Source of the DNA: Streptomyces sp. NBC_00659
Lineage (GTDB): Bacteria; Actinomycetota; Actinomycetes; Streptomycetales; Streptomycetaceae
DNA length: 64,000 bases
Reading direction: 5' to 3'
NCBI RefSeq assembly: GCF_036226925.1
Contig: NZ_CP109031.1
Coordinates: 4,216,001 to 4,280,000, forward strand
The stretch's first letter is position 1. Every line of letters begins with the position of its first letter. The notes under the pieces were generated by a model. It searched no databases. It worked only from the letters and a program-made list of their open reading frames with translations, and had not been told where the DNA came from. Position numbers and translations under genes: made by a program. This document shows, in pieces, positions 35,987-44,389 of this stretch.

Positions 35987-36394
35987 CGCCGCTCGTCGCC
36001 GCGGCCATCACCTTCGACGGCCGCCTCTCAGCGGCCCGTCGGTAGCCCCAACCACCCTCGGTTGCACGGCTCGTTCGACAGCCCCCGCCTCGGCATCACC
36101 CTGCCGCCGAAGATCAGAACAACGAGCCAATAGTCCGCAGCCCTAACTCTCGCTCCAGGTCATTGGGTTGACGCGACGGTGTGCCGGCCGGGCCCTCGTC
36201 CGCAGCGCGTCCATACCGTATGCCGAACAGCAAAGCCTCTTTCTGTGGCGCCAGTTGGCGTCAACTCCGGGCCCGGCCCCTCCTCCGTACACGATGGCCT
36301 CCGCGCTCCGACCACCCGGCGCTACTGCTAGTGTTCATCCGGTCACGCTAGGCAACTAGCTATCACGTGTAAGCAATGGAGAACCGAGGGTTCC
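35987..36394 (+). promoter_or_regulatory. gene-free border and promoter region of the surface-protein island
   Basis: About 400 bp have no supported gene. A TAGTGT -10-like hexamer at 36329-36334 could serve the first small secreted protein. GAGGG lies just before its ATG. The palindromic fragment TGGCGCCAGTTGGCG is near 36246. No integrase, direct repeats or att-like sequence was found at this border. Confidence 0.4.
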
Positions 36395-36640
36395 ATGCGT
36401 AAGTTTCAGCAGGTCGTGATCGCAGCAGTGGCGGCGGCCGGTGGCCTGTCCGCCATCGGTGCCGGAACAGCTGTCGCCGACACCCATGACAACGGACCGC
36501 GGGCGGTGGACCTTTACCGCCCCTACCAGGAGTGCAGCCCGCAGACGGTGTCGGAGAACGACATCCCGATCGGAGTGCTCGGCCTGGGTCAGACCCGGGA
36601 CACCGCCTGCGGCCAGCACAACCGCGCCTTCAACGGCTGA
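36395..36640 (+). CDS. small secreted protein 1 with RPYQECSPQT module
   Basis: An 81-residue protein. A Sec signal peptide (MRKFQQVVIAAVAAAGG, cleavage after AVA28) leaves a mature part of about 53 residues. The mature part is essentially one module: LYRPYQECSPQT, then NDIPIGVLG, QTR, and a second Cys in ACGQHN. The same module forms the C-terminus of the protein at 39793-40272 (FRPYQECSPQT, NVPIALLG, QTRGVECTQAN), so this is a two-cysteine secreted family. The leader CCGAGGGTTCC before the ATG is also shared with the 40730 gene. Function unknown; a surface or spore-coat role is inferred from the neighbouring chaplin. Confidence 0.8.
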   Translation: MRKFQQVVIAAVAAAGGLSAIGAGTAVADTHDNGPRAVDLYRPYQECSPQTVSENDIPIGVLGLGQTRDTACGQHNRAFNG

Positions 36641-36675
36641 GGTCAGCGACGTCAGCATCGCGACGATCGGCACGG

Positions 36676-36703
36676 GATCCCTTCGGGTTAACCCGAAGGG
36701 ATC
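36676..36703 (+). terminator. terminator of small secreted protein 1
   Basis: A perfect 28-bp palindrome with arms GATCCCTTCGGGTT lies 36 bp after the stop codon; the next gene therefore has its own promoter or is weakly read through. Confidence 0.75.
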
Positions 36704-36952
36704 GAATGCCGGCAGCCGGCCGCCTTGATCTCAGTGCGAGCCGGCCAGGGCTGGTGAAGCCCAGAGGGGACGGCCGCTCAGGTCGGCTATGCCCCGCACG
36801 TTCCCCCAACCAGCGGCCCCATCCGCCTGTCAGGCCAACTGTCCAGCCGACGCGGAAAGTTGGAAAAGGCTCAGTGCCGCAGACCGCACCTGCGGCGCGG
36901 CCGATCCCGAGGGAGCGGCGCCCGGGGCGCCCGTACTAAGGACACGCATCAC

Positions 36953-37294
36953 ATGTTCAGCGCGAAGAAGATCGCGGCCCTCTCGGGGCTCATCGGCGGG
37001 CTCGCCGTGACGTCCATGGGCATGACGTACGCACACGCCGCGGGAGACCCGGCATCTTGCACTCGGAACCCCCAAGGGGACGTCATCTGTGTGCAGCACA
37101 TCGAAGGCAGGACCGCCGGGCGCGACGCCATTCCTCATCAGGAAACCTGTATGCCGGTGCAGGCCGTGACGCTGCCCGCTCCCACGGGCAACGGCACCAC
37201 ACAACTCGGCCCTCGGGTGACCTGTTCACCTGCCACGTCTGGAGCACCTCGACCGATCGAAGGAAAGCGGGAACTGCCCGACCTCCTCCCCTGA
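36953..37294 (+). CDS. small secreted four-cysteine protein 2 (CVQ family)
   Basis: A 113-residue protein with a signal peptide (MFSAKKIAALSGLIGGLAV, cleavage after AHA29). The mature part has four cysteines with the core GDVICVQHIEG and LGPRVTCSPA. It is a paralogue of the protein at 38277-38615 (KDVVCVQKNE, VGPVVECSN), with the same four Cys in similar spacing, which suggests two disulfides. The C-terminus is Pro-rich. I chose the ATG at 36953 from the signal peptide. Function unknown. Confidence 0.7.
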   Translation: MFSAKKIAALSGLIGGLAVTSMGMTYAHAAGDPASCTRNPQGDVICVQHIEGRTAGRDAIPHQETCMPVQAVTLPAPTGNGTTQLGPRVTCSPATSGAPRPIEGKRELPDLLP

Positions 37295-37461
37295 GGAATA
37301 CGACGGCTGAACCCCGCCCTATGGCGCCATTGACGCTTTACCCCATACGGGGCTCCGGGGCGACATGGGGCGTAAATCCTCGATTGATTACACCTGGCGT
37401 GCAAACGTTTACGTTAAGTGGTCATTCCGGGCGGTATGCCTGGATCAGGAAAGGGTCATCT

Positions 37462-38043
37462 ATGCGTAAGTTCCAGCGCGCCATGGTCGTAGCGGCGGCC
37501 GTAGCGGGACTGTCCGCCCTCGGCGTCGGCATCAGCTTCGCCGACGGTAACGGCAGCGTGCCTGTACCGGTCACCGCCGTCGCCAACACGTCTGCCAACG
37601 CCGTAGCCGTCGGGGGTGGCTACTACCTCCAGCCGCAGGAGCAGGTCCAGCCGCAGGAGCAGAAGCTGGCGCAGGAGCAGGCTCAGCCGCAGGTCCAGCC
37701 CCAGGAGCAGGCCCAGCCTCAGGAGCAGGCTCAGCCCCAGGTCCAGCCGCAGGAGCAGGCCCAGCCGCAGGTCCAGCCCCAAGAGCAGGCCCAGCTGCAG
37801 GAGCAGGCCCAGCCGCAGGAGCAGGCCCAGCCGCAGGAGCAGGTCCAGCCCCAGGTCCAGCCCCAGGAGCAGGCTCAGCCGCAGGTCCAGCCCCAGGAGC
37901 AGGCTCAGCCGCAGGTCCAGCCCCAGGAGCAGGCCCAGCCGCAGGAGCAGGCTCAGCCGCAGATCCAGGAGCAGGCCCAGGAGCAGGGGCAGCCTCAGGA
38001 GCAGACCCAGCCGCAGGAGCAGGAGCAGGGTGACAACGGCTAA
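37462..38043 (+). CDS. secreted QPQEQ-repeat protein 3
   Basis: A 193-residue protein. The signal peptide (MRKFQRAMVVAAAVAGL, cleavage after SFA27) is followed by a short linker and then about 135 residues made almost wholly of Gln, Pro, Glu and Ala in units such as QPQEQAQPQVQ. There are no cysteines. The mature chain should be extended, highly soluble and rich in Gln side chains, a possible transglutaminase or amyloid-type substrate, or a stalk. The repeated codons are nearly identical, so the repeat number is probably variable between strains. AAAGGG precedes the ATG. Confidence 0.75.
   Translation: MRKFQRAMVVAAAVAGLSALGVGISFADGNGSVPVPVTAVANTSANAVAVGGGYYLQPQEQVQPQEQKLAQEQAQPQVQPQEQAQPQEQAQPQVQPQEQAQPQVQPQEQAQLQEQAQPQEQAQPQEQVQPQVQPQEQAQPQVQPQEQAQPQVQPQEQAQPQEQAQPQIQEQAQEQGQPQEQTQPQEQEQGDNG
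37630..38034. repeat. coding tandem repeats, 6- to 18-bp units
   Basis: About 400 bp of CAGGAGCAGGCCCAGCCG-type units that encode the QPQEQ repeats. Units are mostly 12 or 18 bp and differ only by synonymous or Ala/Val switches, pointing to recent expansion by slippage or recombination. They are in frame throughout and are not CRISPR-like. Confidence 0.85.
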
Positions 38044-38136
38044 GTGCCAGAGCTCCGAGTGAAGGCCCGCCGCGGCCTCACTCGGCGTCGGGGATACGGA
38101 CCGAGCGGTGCGCCGAGTGATATCCCGTGGTGCAGG

Positions 38137-38169
38137 TAGCCCGGACGCCGAGTTCGCGTCCGGGCTACA
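38137..38169 (+). terminator. terminator of the QPQEQ-repeat gene
   Basis: The stem GTAGCCCGGACG (38137-38148) pairs with CGTCCGGGCTAC (38158-38169) around a 9-base loop, 95 bp after the stop. Confidence 0.8.
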
Positions 38170-38276
38170 TCCATCCTGCCGGCGGACAAGGATTTTAATT
38201 GCCCGACTTTCTCGGCGCGGATAGCGCCGGTCAATAAAGAACTATCTGATTTCTTCACCACAAAGGAATTCAACGG

Positions 38277-38615
38277 ATGCTCTTTTCACAGAAGACTGCG
38301 GCCGTCGCAGCATTCGCCGGAAGCCTCGCCGTCATCTGCCTCGGCTCTACAGCACATGCCGGGGTGAACGCAGGCGCCTGCCCCACCGAGCAGAAGGACG
38401 TCGTGTGCGTTCAGAAGAATGAGACGTACACCGACAAGGACGGCACGCACGTCATCAACCAGGACCAGCAGTGCTCGACAACAGACCGGCCGAACGTGGT
38501 CACCCAGCAGGACCAGCTCACGGGCAGCGCCCCTGCCAAAGTGGGGCCTGTTGTGGAGTGCTCCAACACGGCCAAGCTGCCCAAGGGGTTCAAGAAGCCG
38601 CACATCGGCGTCTGA
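38277..38615 (+). CDS. small secreted four-cysteine protein 4 (CVQ family)
   Basis: A 112-residue protein with a signal peptide (MLFSQKTAAVAAFAG, cleavage after AHA28). Its mature four-cysteine domain (ACPTEQKDVVCVQKNE, DQQCSTTD, GPVVECSNT) is paralogous to the protein at 36953-37294. It ends in a basic tail (KLPKGFKKPHIGV), unlike its relative. AAAGGAATT precedes the ATG, and the 5' region is unusually AT-rich for this genome. A strong terminator with a T-rich run follows. Function unknown. Confidence 0.78.
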   Translation: MLFSQKTAAVAAFAGSLAVICLGSTAHAGVNAGACPTEQKDVVCVQKNETYTDKDGTHVINQDQQCSTTDRPNVVTQQDQLTGSAPAKVGPVVECSNTAKLPKGFKKPHIGV

Positions 38616-38625
38616 GCACTCACGG

Positions 38626-38663
38626 AAATGCTGGTCCGGGGAAGGGTTCCCGGACCAGCATTT
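38626..38663 (+). terminator. intrinsic terminator of small secreted protein 4
   Basis: The stem AAATGCTGGTCCGGG (38626-38640) pairs with CCCGGACCAGCATTT (38649-38663) and is followed by TCGTTTTCG. It is one of the best Rho-independent terminators in the window. Confidence 0.92.
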
Positions 38664-38737
38664 TCGTTTTCGAAGCGGCTGGTGTCCGACCATCGCGTCC
38701 CCTCGGGACGTGCCGTGGTGCAACCACCTCACAGCTA

Positions 38738-38795
38738 CGGCCTTCGCGTCGATCCCGCGCTTCCGTGACGGAGCGCAGGATCAACGCGAAGGCCG
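38738..38795 (-). terminator. long hairpin terminator of small secreted protein 5
   Basis: CGGCCTTCGCGT (38738-38749) pairs with ACGCGAAGGCCG (38784-38795), with inner GATCC/GGATC and GCGCT/AGCGC pairing. It lies 18 bp past the stop of the minus-strand gene at 38813. Confidence 0.8.
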
Positions 38796-38812
38796 CTGCC
38801 GTGTTCGGCGTC

Positions 38813-39097
38813 TCAGCCGCCAAACGTGTTGCTGCAGCCCGCGGTCGAGCCCAGTGACGTCTTCTGACCCCCCGGGTTGCCCTCTCCGCCCAGCAGGTTG
38901 CCGCCCAGCCCGTTGCCGATGCCGACCTGACCGAGGACATCGAGGTTCAGGTCGTGCGACTGACAGGTGCTGTGCTGCGAGACCTTGAGGCTGTCGCCCC
39001 TGTCCCAGCCCTGATCCGCGTGGGCGACGCTCGCGCCCAGAAGACCGACGTTTCCGAGGACGGCCATCAGGACAGCGGCCGTACGGAGCTTGCGCAT
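38813..39097 (-). CDS. small secreted protein 5, SHDLN family
   Basis: A 94-residue protein with a signal peptide (MRKLRTAAVLMAVLGNVG, cleavage after AHA27). The 67-residue mature part has the family core CQSHDLNLDVLGQVG, then NGLGGNLLGGEGNPGGQ, SLGS and a final GCSNTFGG, with just two cysteines 42 residues apart. It is one of three paralogues in this island (also 39314-39595 and 41385-41669). Gly/Asn/Leu-rich composition and alternating hydrophobics recall chaplin domains, though sequence and Cys spacing differ. GGAGATGGC precedes the ATG. Function unknown. Confidence 0.82.
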   Translation of the reverse strand: MRKLRTAAVLMAVLGNVGLLGASVAHADQGWDRGDSLKVSQHSTCQSHDLNLDVLGQVGIGNGLGGNLLGGEGNPGGQKTSLGSTAGCSNTFGG

Positions 39098-39242
39098 GCC
39101 ATCTCCAGAAGAAGTGAGGTGAATACGATCCGCGAGGGATCGCCTCTATGTGACGCGAAGAATTCAAGGACGCCAGAACGGAGTGCCCGGAAGGGGCCAG
39201 CGCAACGCCGTACCGCCTCGGAAGTGTTTTGGCGCACGAGAA

Positions 39243-39279
39243 GGTCCCGGCACTTTGCCTGAGGCCCAGTGCCGGGACC
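39243..39279 (-). terminator. terminator of small secreted protein 6
   Basis: GGTCCCGGCACT (39243-39254) pairs perfectly with AGTGCCGGGACC (39268-39279) across a 13-base loop. It separates the two minus-strand SHDLN genes, so the gene at 38813 needs its own promoter. Confidence 0.85.
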
Positions 39280-39313
39280 GTTCTGGTTAAGCGTTTTTAC
39301 GCCTGAGGGGACT

Positions 39314-39595
39314 TCAGAAGGCGCTGTTGTTACAGCCCATGGTGGAGCCGAGCGAGGTGGACTGGGCGCCCGGGTTGCCTTCGCCGTTGAGGGCGTTGCC
39401 CAGCAGGCCGTTCAGCACGCCGACCTGGCCGAGGACGTCGAGGTTCAGGTCGTGCGACTTGCAGTTGGAGCTCTGCGTGACGCTGAACTGGTCGCCGCCG
39501 CCCTCGCCGTGACCGCCGGCGTAGGCCGTACCGCCTACGAGTCCGATGCTGCCGATGGCAGCGACCAGGACGGCAACGTTGCGAAGCTTGCGCAT
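39314..39595 (-). CDS. small secreted protein 6, SHDLN family
   Basis: A 93-residue protein with a signal peptide (MRKLRNVAVLVAAIGSIG, cleavage near AYA26). The mature part carries CKSHDLNLDVLGQVGVLNG, GNALNGEGNPGAQ and STMGCNNSAF. Identity to the tandem neighbour at 38813-39097 is high over the mature region, so this is a recent duplication. The Gly-rich segment after the signal (GGHGEGGGDQF) is specific to this copy. CGGAGATAAA precedes the ATG. Function unknown. Confidence 0.82.
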   Translation of the reverse strand: MRKLRNVAVLVAAIGSIGLVGGTAYAGGHGEGGGDQFSVTQSSNCKSHDLNLDVLGQVGVLNGLLGNALNGEGNPGAQSTSLGSTMGCNNSAF

Positions 39596-39792
39596 TTTAT
39601 CTCCGTGTGGGGGTGAGTTTTTGCGATCTGTGGGTAGATCGCGGTTACAGGGCAGAACATTAGCGACAAATGCCTTGAACTGGGCAACGACACGCTGGCT
39701 TTATGTCGCAAAGAAAGCACCGAAATCCGTATCGCATGGCGAGCCGAGCCGGTTCGTCCGCCGCCCGAACCCGGTATCGACGCGGTTGTCCG

Positions 39793-40272
39793 TCAGTGCT
39801 GCTGCACGTTGGCGAAAGAATTCGTCTGGCTGTTGGCCTGGGTGCACTCGACGCCCCGGGTCTGGGACGAGCCGAGCAGGGCGATCGGGACGTTCGCGTC
39901 GAGCAGGGTCTGCGGGCTGCACTCCTGGTACGGACGGAACAGGTTGGCCTGCCCCGCCGAAGCACCCTGCTGCTGCCGCGGCGCTTCAGGAGAGATCCGC
40001 GGGCTGAGCTGCGGATTCAGCTGCGGGCTGACCTGCGGGGCAACCTGAGTGCCACGCGCCGGTGCCAGCTGTTGCGGAGCCGGCGAGCCATAGGTCTGCG
40101 CGGTCGCCTGAGCGGAGGACGCCGATGCTGCCTGGGCGTCGGGCTGCGAAACCGGGTGCGGTGCAACGCCGTTGGGTGCGGACGGGGTGACGGCGAAGCT
40201 TGAGCCGGCGCCGACGCCGGCCAGGCCGCCGGCTGTTGCGGCGACGAGCGCGATCTTGTGAAGCATACGCAT
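39793..40272 (-). CDS. secreted protein 7: low-complexity region plus RPYQECSPQT module
   Basis: A 159-residue protein. The signal peptide (MRMLHKIALVAATAGGL, cleavage after SFA27) is followed by about 80 residues rich in Ala/Gln/Pro/Ser (QVSPQLNPQLSPRIS). The C-terminal module FRPYQECSPQT, NVPIALLG, QTRGVECTQAN matches the whole mature part of the protein at 36395. The low-complexity part resembles the protein at 40730 (QVNPQLNPQVNP), which is divergent from it. GAGGAAA precedes the ATG at 40272. It thus links two of the island's groups, as if modules had been shuffled. Function unknown. Confidence 0.8.
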   Translation of the reverse strand: MRMLHKIALVAATAGGLAGVGAGSSFAVTPSAPNGVAPHPVSQPDAQAASASSAQATAQTYGSPAPQQLAPARGTQVAPQVSPQLNPQLSPRISPEAPRQQQGASAGQANLFRPYQECSPQTLLDANVPIALLGSSQTRGVECTQANSQTNSFANVQQH

Positions 40273-40729
40273 GAGTTTCCTCGGCTCTTCAATTGACCTG
40301 TGCACGGAAGCTGATGTGCCGATGCGGCAGCGCAGTCTTCGCTGTCCTCGCTGCTCCATTCGGCCGCGATGGGCCATCCCTATCGCCCCGTGGGGAACGA
40401 AAAAAACACGGGCTCGAAACGGGTGCGGGGGTGTGGTCACCCATTCGGTGCGGCGTGCGAGCCGTGACGCCCGGGCCGGCAGACGGCAAATGGGTGACGG
40501 CCCGTCGAGTGCCGTGACCACGGCGCCGAAATCTCGTTCCTCGGAGGGGAGGGCAGCGACCGTAAACCTTTGACAGGTAGAGGATCCGCTGCCAGCTCCG
40601 ATACGAAGTCCGCGTGCTCCTCGAGACAACCGTAGCCTCCGGCACGATGCGAGTGACGCACCAACTGCACGCGTGACCGCATCGAATGCAATGGACTCAC
40701 ATCTCAGGCAACGAAGGGCCGAGGGTTTC
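40273..40729. promoter_or_regulatory. divergent intergenic region between secreted proteins 7 and 8
   Basis: 457 bp without a supported gene. It contains an A7 tract (about 40400-40406) and a TTGACA -35-like hexamer at 40571-40576 facing the 40730 gene, without a clear -10 at the normal distance. Both flanking genes have a CCGAGG element just before the ATG, a shared leader also seen before the 36395 gene. Confidence 0.4.
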
Positions 40730-41311
40730 ATGCGGAAGCTTCACAAGGCCGCGCTCGTCGTCGCGGCGGCCAGCGGTTTGGCCGGCATCGGCGCCAGCGG
40801 CAGCTATGCCGACTCACCGGAGGGGCGCCTCAGTACCACCCCGGCATCGGTTCCGGATCAGCCGGCTGCTCCGGCCGCGGCTCCCCAGCCGGCCCCACAG
40901 GCCGCTCCGTCAGGTCAACAGCAGACCGGATACGCGTCGGCCTCGGCCTCATCACAGGGAACGGCCCAGGCCTCCAGCACGTCGAACCCGCAACAGGCCG
41001 CTCCCGCACGCTTCGTGCAGGCCGCACCCGCACCCGCACAGCCTGCGCAGGCCGCGCCGTCACAGGTCGTGCCCCAGGTCATGCCGCAGGTCATGCCGCA
41101 AGTGGCCCCGCAGGTGGCAGTACCCCAGGTACTCGACTCCGAGGCCCCGATGATGGTCGCCCCCCAGGTGAACCCGCAGCTCAACCCTCAGGTGAACCCG
41201 CTCGTCGACCCGACGATCACGCCCACGAGCGCACCGGAACTGGCTCCGGTCGCCCTCGGGCAGATCGCGGCCCCTCCCATCGGGCAACTGGGACTTCCCC
41301 GACTCGGCTGA
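40730..41311 (+). CDS. secreted Ala/Gln/Pro-rich protein 8
   Basis: A 193-residue protein. The signal peptide (MRKLHKAALVVAAASGL, cleavage after SYA27) is followed by a chain dominated by Ala, Pro, Gln, Val and Ser, including QVMPQVMPQVAPQVAVPQV and QVNPQLNPQVNP repeats. It has no cysteine. The end (APPIGQLGLPRLG) is hydrophobic. It is related in composition and leader to the divergent protein at 39793-40272 and probably forms a two-gene unit with the SHDMN gene 73 bp downstream. Function unknown; an extended surface polymer is plausible. Confidence 0.75.
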   Translation: MRKLHKAALVVAAASGLAGIGASGSYADSPEGRLSTTPASVPDQPAAPAAAPQPAPQAAPSGQQQTGYASASASSQGTAQASSTSNPQQAAPARFVQAAPAPAQPAQAAPSQVVPQVMPQVMPQVAPQVAVPQVLDSEAPMMVAPQVNPQLNPQVNPLVDPTITPTSAPELAPVALGQIAAPPIGQLGLPRLG

Positions 41312-41384
41312 CGGCCCGCCCCCTGCACATCCGCAGTCCTGACTCAACGGGTCAGATCCCCGCACTTCCTCCAAGGAGTTTCAC

Positions 41385-41669
41385 ATGCGCAAGTTGCACA
41401 AGGTAGTTCTTCTGAGCGTCCTCCTCGGCAGTGTCGGCTCCTTTGGTGCCAACACCGCTTTCGCGTACGGCGATGAGGGCCACGACACCGACAGCATCGA
41501 CATCACGCAGGGCGTCGAGTGCCGCTCGCACGACATGAACATCGAGGTGCTCGGCAACGTCGGCGCCCTCACCGGCCTGGCCGGCAACCTGCTGAACGGA
41601 GAAGGGGCCGCGGGCGCGCAGAAGAGCCACCTCGGTTCCGAGATGGGCTGCAACAGCCGGGCGCTCTGA
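41385..41669 (+). CDS. small secreted protein 9, SHDMN family
   Basis: A 94-residue protein with a signal peptide (MRKLHKVVLLSVLLGSVG, cleavage after AFA27). The mature core CRSHDMNIEVLGNVGALTG, GNLLNGEGAAGAQ and SEMGCNSRAL makes it the third and most diverged member of the family that includes 38813-39097 and 39314-39595. The acidic segment YGDEGHDTDS follows the signal. CAAGGAG precedes the ATG. It lies 73 bp after the Ala/Gln/Pro-rich gene and is followed by a strong terminator. Function unknown. Confidence 0.82.
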   Translation: MRKLHKVVLLSVLLGSVGSFGANTAFAYGDEGHDTDSIDITQGVECRSHDMNIEVLGNVGALTGLAGNLLNGEGAAGAQKSHLGSEMGCNSRAL

Positions 41670-41733
41670 CCGGCTTCCCCTTACCTGCCTGCCTTGTCGA
41701 TTTAGCCGGCACCATCCCCGCACCGGGATGCAC

Positions 41734-41776
41734 GGAGGCGGCGTGGACGCATGAAGCGTTCACGCCGCCTCCGTTT
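41734..41776 (+). terminator. terminator after small secreted protein 9
   Basis: GGAGGCGGCGTG (41734-41745) pairs with CACGCCGCCTCC (41761-41772), followed by GTTTTC. It probably also serves the convergent chaplin gene. Confidence 0.88.
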
Positions 41777-41884
41777 TCATGCCCCTTCTCGCCCACCGGG
41801 CTGAGCGGACGAACGGGCGGACAGGCACCGGCAGCCCCCTGGGCCCCACCAAACAGGTTCGATGGGGCTCTACAGGCATCCGGG

Positions 41885-42586
41885 TCAGCGAGTTGGGCGG
41901 AAGCGGCGGTACAGGAACGCACCCGCAAGGAGGGACGCGGCGCCGCCCGCGAGGGCCGGCACCGTCAGATCCGCTCCTGTGTGGGCCAGCGTGGACGTCG
42001 CCATGTCCGGGGTGTCCGGAACGGCCTCATGCCGGGGGGCCGGGGTTCGTGACACGGGGGGCGTCGGGGCCGAGGGCTTGGGGGCCGGAGTCGTTCGGGG
42101 AACGTGCGGGTGAGAGTGGTCACCGCCGTTGACCGACTGGTTGCCGACCGCAGGGTTGCCCACGCCGACCGCGTTGACGCTGTTCCCGGAAACGTTCACC
42201 GGCAGATCGACCGGGAGCTGCAGACCGTTGCCTGAGAGCAGCCCGGGCGAGTCCGTGACGCGGCCGTCAGCCGAGGCTCCGCCCGACGTGTCCGATCCGC
42301 CGCCGGTTTCCGCACCGTCGGCCTTGGCCGTGTCCTTGTTTTTGCACACGTTGCCCACGGCCGGGTTGAGCAGCCCCACGACGTCCACCGTGTTGCCGCA
42401 GAGGTTCAACGCCCCGGACAGTGGAACCTGGATGTTGTTCCCGGAGAGCACCCCGGGCGAATCGGCCGCCGTAGCCCCGGCATCAGCACCGTCGGCTGCG
42501 AAGACGGCGGACGCGGGAAAAGCCACGGCCATCGCGCCGGATGCGGCGGCAACAGCGAGCACACGGTTTCGAGTAGCCCGTCTCAT
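41885..42586 (-). CDS. long chaplin with two chaplin domains and LAHTG sortase signal
   Basis: A 233-residue cell-wall-anchored chaplin. After the signal peptide (cleavage near VFA30), chaplin domain 1 is DSPGVLSGNNIQVPLSG through CGNTVDVVGLLNPAVGNVC, with the usual cysteine pair. Domain 2 (DSPGLLSGNGLQLPVDLP through SGNSVNAVGVGNPAVGNQS) has both cysteines replaced by serine. A Pro/Thr linker precedes LAHTG, a hydrophobic helix and RRFRPTR, the class E sortase signal. Long chaplins (ChpA-C in S. coelicolor) coat aerial hyphae and spores with amyloid and make them hydrophobic. The ATG at 42586 follows GGAAGG. A BldN-type promoter lies upstream. Confidence 0.93.
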   Translation of the reverse strand: MRRATRNRVLAVAAASGAMAVAFPASAVFAADGADAGATAADSPGVLSGNNIQVPLSGALNLCGNTVDVVGLLNPAVGNVCKNKDTAKADGAETGGGSDTSGGASADGRVTDSPGLLSGNGLQLPVDLPVNVSGNSVNAVGVGNPAVGNQSVNGGDHSHPHVPRTTPAPKPSAPTPPVSRTPAPRHEAVPDTPDMATSTLAHTGADLTVPALAGGAASLLAGAFLYRRFRPTR

Positions 42587-42985: not shown

Positions 42986-44389
42986 GTGCGAATTTCCGAT
43001 ATTCAGCGCTGCGAGGTCCGGCCTGGGCGGCTTGTGGAGTGGGGGTTCAGCCCTGCGACCGTCGCGGCCGCGACGGTGCTGCCGACGGATCCACGGCCGC
43101 CGGCGTACATCCAGGAGTCGCACATCAGAACGGCGCGGTCGGTGCGCGAGGGGGGCTTGTTCGTGCCGACCTGGCTCGGTACGGCTTTCGACCTGCCCGG
43201 CCGAGTCGACCTCGACGCGCTGGAACAGGCCCTACGCGGCTGGACACTGCGCCACGAGACGCTGCGCAGCGGGTTCACATGGGTGGGCGACGAGATGCAG
43301 CGGTTCACTCTCGACCAGGACGATGTCACGCTCTACCGCGAAGTGGTGGGCGACTTCGCCGATGCGGACGTCCTGGCCGAACATTTGCAGGACCGTTTCG
43401 ACCAGGCGGCAGACGCTCTCGGCTGGCCCAATCTCCTCTACGCGGCGGTCGTCCGCGAAGACTCCACCAGCGTGTATCTGGCATTCGACCACACCAACGT
43501 CGACGCCTACTCGCTGCAGCGCATCCCGTACGAGGTGCAGGAGCTGTACACGGCACATGCCGCAGGGCAGCCCCTCGCCGCCGCACCGGTCGCGAGCTAC
43601 GTGGACTTCTGCGAGCAGGAACGAACGAACGCGAACGCCATCGACGACACACACGCGATCGTCACGCGCTGGCGGGAGTTCATCGGCCGGTGCGACGGAA
43701 GGCTTCCGGAGTTCCCTGTCGATCTGGGCCTGCAGCCCGGCGACGGTCTGCCCGTCCAAAAGCTCATGCGCGAGCCGCTCGTCGATGCGGAAGCGGCCGC
43801 GGCGTTCGAGACGTACTGCCGGCCCTACGGCGGCAGCCTGGTGGGCGTCCTGGCCGCAACCAGTCTGATCGTCCACGAACTCGGCGGGCAACCGGTCTAC
43901 CGCGCGGTCGTGCCGTTCCACACCCGGCTGAAGTCCACATGGTCGGACTCCGTGGGCTGGTATGTCGGCGGCGCGCCGATCGAAGTACCCGCGGCACGGG
44001 ACTTCGACGCCGCGCTCGCCTCGGTCCGGGCCCAGCTGCAGGCCAATCGGTCGTTGGCCCGCATTCCTCTGGCCCGGGTACTACGCCTCCTGGGCGAGGA
44101 CTTCCGCCCCACATCACCCGACCTGTACTCGATCGTCTCGTATGTGGACGCCCGCCTCACTCCTGGTTCGGCCTGCTGGACCGAACAAAAGGCGTACGGG
44201 CTGCTCCGTGTGTCGTACGGCGATCAGGTGTGCGCCTGGGTCAACCGGCTGCACGAGGGACTCTGGATCGCATGCCGCCACCCCGACACGGACATCGCTT
44301 CCAAGAACGTACAGCTGTATATCGAGAAGCTTCGAGAGCTGATCGTCTCGGTTTGTCCCGCACCCCTTTCAGCCGTCGCAGGGCGATGA
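42986..44389 (+). CDS. stand-alone condensation-domain-like acyltransferase
   Basis: A 467-residue protein with the fold of NRPS condensation domains and PapA acyltransferases. It shows RHETLRSGF (89-97, condensation core 2) and the active-site region FDHTNVDAYS, where H169 and D173 keep the second His and the Asp of HHxxxDG, while the first His is Asp and the Gly is Ala. No carrier protein, adenylation or ketosynthase domain is encoded nearby, so it may transfer an acyl or aminoacyl group to a free acceptor. The GTG at 42986 follows AAGGAG. It is divergent from the chaplin, at the edge of the small-secreted-protein island. Confidence 0.75.
   Translation: MRISDIQRCEVRPGRLVEWGFSPATVAAATVLPTDPRPPAYIQESHIRTARSVREGGLFVPTWLGTAFDLPGRVDLDALEQALRGWTLRHETLRSGFTWVGDEMQRFTLDQDDVTLYREVVGDFADADVLAEHLQDRFDQAADALGWPNLLYAAVVREDSTSVYLAFDHTNVDAYSLQRIPYEVQELYTAHAAGQPLAAAPVASYVDFCEQERTNANAIDDTHAIVTRWREFIGRCDGRLPEFPVDLGLQPGDGLPVQKLMREPLVDAEAAAAFETYCRPYGGSLVGVLAATSLIVHELGGQPVYRAVVPFHTRLKSTWSDSVGWYVGGAPIEVPAARDFDAALASVRAQLQANRSLARIPLARVLRLLGEDFRPTSPDLYSIVSYVDARLTPGSACWTEQKAYGLLRVSYGDQVCAWVNRLHEGLWIACRHPDTDIASKNVQLYIEKLRELIVSVCPAPLSAVAGR

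Follow-up and report, generated by a model that had tools for sequence, protein, structure and literature searches.

What does Streptomyces build from nine short secreted proteins and a chaplin encoded side by side? The question is raised by a 64,000-nucleotide stretch of the Streptomyces sp. NBC_00659 genome (NZ_CP109031.1, positions 4,216,001 to 4,280,000), here called the window. A first-pass annotation made from its sequence had read positions 36395-42586 as a secreted assembly of the aerial hypha or spore surface. Ten open reading frames (ORFs), g1 to g10, lie there as described and encode nine small secreted proteins of 81-193 aa and a long chaplin (Table 1). The island is a conserved unit, and it is more than a chance gathering because its gene order is kept across species. 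A spore-surface assembly is the best-supported reading, most probably one that makes spines or hairs. We lean, by a narrow preference, towards the island as a candidate building set of the ornamented (spiny or hairy) spore surface.

A conserved island of cysteine families and stalks

Each of the nine small proteins has an AXA-type cleavage site that ends at residue 26-29 (motif rule), where Sec signal peptides had been placed by the first-pass annotation. The MRK[FL] start that it had seen in most of them is found in six, the exceptions being g7 (MRML), g2 (MFSA), and g4 (MLFS). Seven of the nine carry new cysteine domains. Family A (g5, g6, and g9) has two cysteines and the motif CxSHDxN...VLG, family B (g1 and the C-terminal part of g7) has the motif YQECSPQT, and family C (g2 and g4) has four invariant cysteines. 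These fit the earlier count of at least three paralogous groups, whose repetition on both strands holds for A (g5 and g6 minus, g9 plus) and B (g1 plus, g7 minus) but not for C, with both genes on the plus strand. A stalk is common to g8 and the N-terminal part of g7 (E 6e-15). The g3 protein is a repeat protein separate from this stalk, and an 18-base unit in 22.9 copies encodes the PQEQ repeat of its tail. The G+C content is about 65-68% in the island and about 69-73% in its flanks.

We scanned a species-level genome collection for family A and took 80 of the 191 confirmed loci, each with up to 20 kb of context, mapping hidden Markov model (HMM) matches of 35 bits or more. At least one B and at least one C gene accompany family A in 49 of the 80 loci, which we call islands; family A stands alone in 25, and six have neither arrangement. 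The exact order A-B'-A-A-C-C-B, a mirror of the window, occurs in 28 of the 80. Where we inspected the respective slot, 28 of 35 loci had a g3-like gene and 24 of 31 a g8-like one. Among 61 Streptomyces genomes drawn evenly from the genus, the window's own included, family A matched in 12, B in 10, and C in 12, and B is present in ten of those twelve. These ten genomes hold B, two C, and several A genes within about 6 kb, and all three families co-occur in the same 10 of 61. The first-pass annotation had named families found mostly alone as evidence against itself. B is in exactly 10 of the 61 genomes, always with C and A, and neither B nor C is ever apart from the island; further scattered copies are of family A only. 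Of the 61 genomes, none without an island has a strong solitary A copy. In the window's genome, a solitary A gene lies far from the island (C1:7553848-7554114).

In two more genomes, G026 and G027, the full island is missing, and families A and C match weakly next to a chaplin. G026 has four A-like genes and one C-like gene and G027 has two of each, all inside a chaplin cluster (L127 7279-9424 and L128 6190-7742, respectively). Some cluster neighbors are also found at the main chaplin cluster of the window's genome, namely what is presumably a melC1-like gene (G026) and an MKSLKAA protein (both). In the Streptomycetaceae, family C is present in 11 of 121 genomes and 4 of 17 genera. Just one of the 49 island loci, L013, has the left flank seen in the window (PBP, DUF4253, and a tRNA-editing protein), and we therefore place the start of the island at g1.

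Fusions connect the families. In g7, a stalk is joined to B, whereas S. noursei (L050), S. natalensis (L072), and S. chattanoogensis (L073) have a protein in which an A domain follows from fusion with a g3-like head and Pro/Gln/Ala stalk. When two proteins are separate in one species and a single chain in another, they commonly contribute to the same structure. The fused and separate modules suggest stalks with exchangeable caps.

Library searches gave no convincing match for the small proteins, as far as sequence comparison can tell. Nothing exceeded a cut-off in Pfam or NCBIfam for g1-g9, and neither the chaplin family PF03777 nor the rodlin family NF041022 (cut-off 75 bits; 221 bits for a rodlin of another genome as control) matched any of them at E <= 1. 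When the mature A, B, and C sequences were compared profile to profile (hhalign) with chaplins (47 domains) and rodlins (64), the probability was at most 5.9%, and under 2% for the rodlins alone. On these tests, we rejected A, B, and C as chaplin or rodlin homologues. No Rfam or PHROGs match was found, and the one PADLOC match, of the g3 repeat, was taken as noise. Searches of the PDB gave none for family A, one at E 0.73 for family C, and six for family B; the best of these six, to TRIAP1 (E 0.0014-0.006), are confined to a stretch of some 30 residues that surrounds a single cysteine, and we took them as chance. Relatives numbered 594 for g6 (120 listed), 162 for g1 (120 listed), and 53 for g4 (53 listed). 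Among the matches listed, those that bear a name are 'hypothetical' or 'secreted protein' of a Streptomyces, apart from a few UniRef labels, given below, and one further exception (P0228).

Small, secreted, fast-changing proteins with two to four cysteines could also be antimicrobial or signaling peptides. We consider this very improbable: the cysteine domains are fused to long stalks in an island of conserved gene order, we noticed no partner gene for immunity or export, and PHROGs and PADLOC returned nothing beyond the repeat noise.

Table 1. Positions of the island genes and associated features in the window
Feature	Position	Strand	Description
Promoter-region block before g1	36322..36359	+	highly conserved; contains CTAGTGTTCA and CTAGGCAACTAG
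g1	36395..36640	+	family B, 81 aa; signal peptide and YRPYQECSPQT...VLGL...C domain, two cysteines; 162 relatives
g2	36953..37294	+	family C, 113 aa, four cysteines (HMM C 92 bits)
g3	37462..38043	+	193 aa, no cysteine; TAVANxSANAVAVGGGYY-type head, then PQEQ repeat tail; unusually long copy
g4	38277..38615	+	family C, 112 aa; mature cysteines 35, 44, 66, 95 invariant
g5	38813..39097	-	family A, 94 aa
5'-UTR (untranslated region) hairpin of g5	39126..39142	-	same GCGATCT...AGATCGC type as g6; not stronger than shuffles (z 0.2)
g6	39314..39595	-	family A, 93 aa, two cysteines
5'-UTR hairpin of g6	39623..39642	-	GCGATCT-N6-AGATCGC; stronger than shuffles (z -3.1)
g7	39793..40272	-	159 aa; C-terminal B domain fused to g8-like Pro/Gln stalk
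g8	40730..41311	+	193 aa Pro/Gln/Ala-rich stalk; conserved C-terminus VPQVMPQ...NPQVNP...GQLGLPRLG
g9	41385..41669	+	family A, 94 aa
g10	41885..42586	-	long chaplin; two ChpA-C domains; LAHTG sortase signal
PapA-like acyltransferase	42986..44389	+	stand-alone condensation fold, HxxxD kept; directly beyond island

Rodlins, chaplins, and acyltransferases around the island

Beyond the first-pass annotation, the comparison brought out three things: a rodlin pattern, a link to ornamentation, and acyltransferase neighbors. Rodlins (RdlA/RdlB, NF041022), which belong to the spore sheath, resemble the island products as small secreted two-cysteine proteins. Unlike in sequence, they are also inverse in distribution. 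They are found in 43 of the 61 genomes and in 144 of a larger set of 199, over the cut-off in 141. With an island called in the 199 by a full-length B match (in G161, left out, the match is to the signal peptide only), rodlins are absent from 19 of 28 island genomes versus 36 of 171 others (odds ratio 7.9, Fisher p 1.7e-6). The two genomes with divergent A and C genes, G026 and G027, are both rodlin-less. Island-type or family A loci led us to 32 named genomes, of which 20 are without rodlins and 12 have a match (11 over the cut-off). The former include S. glaucescens, S. rhizosphaerihabitans, S. populi, and S. chattanoogensis, and the latter S. echinatus and S. noursei. The distance between rodlins and island is 18-20 kb in two of the genomes that have both. 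The available passage of a review gives S. griseoflavus as lacking rodlins (PMC4255298), and the species is listed as spiny in the part available of another source (PMC5307326).

The sortase-anchored two-domain chaplin of the first-pass annotation was confirmed. The g10 protein matches PF03777 with 140.3 bits (cut-off 21) in two domains and is the only ChpA-C protein among g1-g10. Its wall anchor just exceeds the cut-off of TIGR01167 (LPXTG-type; 16.2 versus 15.9), with two LAxTG sub-models below theirs. Chaplins (ChpA-H) are, like the island products, small secreted hydrophobic surface proteins, often with two cysteines and sometimes sortase-anchored, and they often adjoin the island, although A, B, and C differ from them in profile. 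A chaplin lies beside or within 17 of the 49 islands, in several at the window's position and orientation. The neighbor is frequent, not obligatory, and the reading as an aerial or spore surface assembly is partly supported. The window's genome has sixteen ChpA-C matches, yet no rodlin match.

The chaplins beside 17 islands and the divergent A and C genes in chaplin clusters support a system of surface structure. Secreted Pro/Gln-rich repeats and an anchored protein would fit adhesins as well, and the island could serve adhesion or the biofilm matrix of the vegetative mycelium. That role appears improbable to us, since the chaplin linkage, the frequent rodlin absence, and the divergent copies in the chaplin cluster point to the aerial or spore surface instead. 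Structural proteins of the spore wall have precedent in NepA (SCO4002) of S. coelicolor, described in the available passages as an insoluble protein of sporulating hyphae that maintains dormancy (PMC5693915, PMC6414726). We set it beside the supposed role of the island by description only, and a kinship between NepA and family A would be speculative. The neighbors of solitary A genes pointed to no recognizable S. coelicolor locus.

The absence of metabolic genes holds inside 36395-42586 but not at its border, where a PapA-like acyltransferase, linked to islands elsewhere, follows directly. It has the stand-alone condensation fold (PF00668, 68.5 bits), and its best solved relative is PapA2, matched over the full length (E 2.6e-46) with the H and D of HxxxD kept. 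The entry, PDB 6aef, is PapA2, a trehalose-2-sulfate acyltransferase, presumably mycobacterial. A PapA-like gene is beside 22 of the 49 islands and adjoins g1 in 21 of them; in L013 it lies by the chaplin, an arrangement also seen in the window. Another 13 islands, none of which has a PapA-like gene, carry a WS/DGAT-like acyltransferase together with a ketosynthase next to g9, and a second WS/DGAT-like gene then follows in the two loci inspected (L055 and L064). In L055 (3450-7784), the ketosynthase lies between the two WS/DGAT-like acyltransferases, and the first two genes are also in 12 other loci, of one lineage. Together they may form a lipid pathway. Acyltransferases therefore neighbor 35 of 49 islands, a count that represents few lineages and not 35 independent events. 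Among the 25 loci with family A alone, a PapA-like gene is beside none, a WS/DGAT gene beside none, and a ketosynthase beside two.

Spore ornamentation and the length of g3

Spore ornamentation (smooth, spiny, hairy, or warty) has long been used in Streptomyces taxonomy. Our search of the open-access literature turned up no gene for it, which is no proof that none is in print. In the available passages of the respective papers, ornamentation is readable for 11 carriers of the island families: seven spiny, two hairy, two rough, and none smooth. The spiny ones are S. naphthomycinicus, S. echinatus, and S. cellostaticus (PMC11061393), S. piniterrae and S. chattanoogensis (PMC7232196), S. sediminimaris, spiny when mature and a carrier by a C relative only (PMC12166134), and a strain that its paper names S. 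viridochromogenes (PMC12705811). S. rhizosphaerihabitans (PMC7023189) and S. glaucescens (PMC5307326) are hairy, and S. musisoli (PMC11061393) and S. populi (PMC7023189) are rough. S. monashensis is a carrier outside the 11, as the passages available of PMC6395624 give no ornamentation.

Carriers were looked up in listings of 120 of 594 (A), 120 of 162 (B), and 53 of 53 (C) relatives and in 80 of 191 loci. The smooth species S. corchorusii, S. lydicus, S. siamensis, S. fumigatiscleroticus, and S. thinghirensis are not among the carrier matches listed. At least six of 12 species named after spines or hairs are carriers, versus 28 of 199 genomes of the genus (p 0.003, with the six unseen counted as negatives): S. 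spinosus (L043), S. echinatus (L022), S. echinoruber (L025), S. albospinus (L079), S. spinoverrucosus (P0135), and S. cinereospinus (P0153). The other six, not among the matches listed, are S. spinichromogenes, S. spinicoumarensis, S. spinosirectus, S. spinosisporus, S. hirsutus, and S. pilosus. Streptomyces echiniscabiei was left out of the twelve; with it, the count is 6 of 13 (p 0.005).

The length of g3 gives a further connection. We ranked 37 copies from outside the window with a core score of at least 78 bits, a set that leaves out lower-scoring g7-type and fused proteins (up to 215 aa). The two longest are those of both hairy species, S. rhizosphaerihabitans (217 aa) and S. glaucescens (at least 182 aa), an outcome with a probability of 0.0015 (1 in 666). 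The other 35 copies are 71-146 aa long, mostly 80-114, and the longest of these is the 146-aa copy of S. zinciresistens. The S. glaucescens value is a lower bound, as a run of N, an assembly gap, lies within the repeat (L029 5522-6106). The repeats of the two hairy species differ in sequence, and the species are on separate branches of the rpoB tree (G024 and G017, which by coordinates are L013 and L029). With ornamentation read for few of the species compared, we treat the association of g3 length with hairs as a lead. The window's g3 has 193 aa, and the nearest relative in the scan is S. rhizosphaerihabitans (g6 99% identical).

The island might instead add a protein coat to aerial hyphae or spores, in the manner of chaplins, rodlins, or NepA, that serves wall stiffening, dormancy, or hydrophobicity without spines or hairs; ornamentation would then only happen to follow the clades that carry the island. 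Such a layer agrees equally well with the secretion, the cysteines, and the linkage to chaplins, and the evidence from ornamentation is a correlation, biased in part and clustered in the phylogeny. The carriers among species named after spines or hairs, a post hoc count, and the longest g3 repeats on different rpoB branches are less expected from a plain layer, which we regard as unlikely, if still a serious contender.

Several observations weigh against the island as a maker of spines or hairs. The ornamentation sample is biased, as most of its papers were located by looking for spiny and hairy spores, and we turned to the name test after noticing such names among the carriers. Spiny S. triticiradicis, S. 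griseoflavus, S. althioticus, S. phytorum, and S. spinosisporus are also not among the carrier matches listed. Fusions of stalk and A, which score below the limit of the g3 ranking, reach 205 aa in S. noursei and 192 aa in spiny S. chattanoogensis with the A domain counted, and so equal the g3 of the hairy species in length. The g8 protein shows the opposite trend, with the shortest copies in the two hairy species (187 and 191 aa) and the window (193 aa), versus 202-282 aa in the other 22. Rodlins and island are together in 9 of 28 island genomes. Islands are confined to one large clade (about five changes, divergent ones counted) when the rpoB regions of 30 chosen genomes are placed on a midpoint-rooted tree, and a separate clade of six genomes has neither rodlin nor island. 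Within the island clade, rodlins are absent from 10 of 12 genomes with an island or divergent genes versus 1 of 5 others, with a one-sided p of only 0.028. Relatedness accounts for part of the association between island and rodlin absence. Simple sets of B-A-A-C type also occur in Actinacidiphila and Streptacidiphilus. UniRef calls a few A or B relatives 'Chaplin domain-containing' (P0065, P0168, P0199, and P0210) or 'DUF320' (P0231), labels that are not borne out by our Pfam and profile tests. The pN/pS ratios (0.56-0.91) are uninformative because GC-rich sites are saturated.

Expression and a model of assembly

The individual terminators of the first-pass annotation were partly recovered. 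Hairpins that beat the best of 20 shuffles lie 3' of five of the ten genes (g1, g4, g5, g6, and g9), whereas a terminator consensus scan found two sites versus 4.8 expected by chance. Upstream of g6, a stem of at least 6 bp is present in 28 of 29 loci, with the CGATC core (CGATCT...AGATCG) listed in 24. The CGATCT...AGATCG hairpin precedes at least 14 of 29 g5 copies, and stems of any kind precede g1 in 3 of 28. The G-U wobble variants across species suggest that the hairpin upstream of g5 and g6 may act as RNA. For promoters, we applied provisional BldN, WhiG, and SigB-type consensuses. BldN scores of 10-11 out of 12 were obtained upstream of five of the 11 control genes for chaplins and rodlins (in the background, 20 of 600 score at least 10), and the ten window genes reach at most 9, not above background. 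Averaged over up to 29 species, the BldN scores are 6.4 for g5 and 7.3 for g6 versus 3.2 for random sequence. WhiG scores exceed random in all six groups tested and SigB-type scores in five, and the scores single out no regulator.

If the island builds the ornamented surface, the small proteins would be exported by the Sec pathway during aerial development, and their disulfides would form outside the cell. The stalk proteins (g3, g7, and g8) may assemble into extended fibers that are capped or joined by the A and B domains. The chaplin, or an existing chaplin layer, would tie the fibers to the wall. The acyltransferase may make an acylated, perhaps trehalose, lipid that attaches to the layer and renders it hydrophobic. 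In many lineages, the island set would replace the rodlet layer made by rodlins. The repeat length of g3 may set the length of hairs or spines. The hair nap of the Bacillus exosporium offers a parallel, as the repeat length of the filament protein BclA sets hair length there. The likeness is one of description only; BclA has collagen-like repeats and coats an endospore. As for the glutamine repeats, we rejected cross-linking by microbial transglutaminase, as PF09017 exceeds its cut-off in 7 of the 61 genomes and in none of the ten with an island.

In its fullest form, the proposal is that Pro/Gln stalks, exchangeable cysteine caps, and an acylated lipid form a modular kit that replaces the rodlet layer, with g3 repeat length as a ruler by which spines become hairs, and are the missing genetic basis of spiny and hairy spores. 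We hold this tentatively, as a real possibility on the shorter side of even. The long g3 of the window, with S. rhizosphaerihabitans as nearest relative, leads us to predict hairy spores for the window's own species should the proposal be true. The defined island, with its ranked prediction from g3 length of hair versus spine, makes the question of ornamentation testable. If the proposal is right, Streptomyces would make a bacterial appendage from short secreted modules, probably together with a lipid.

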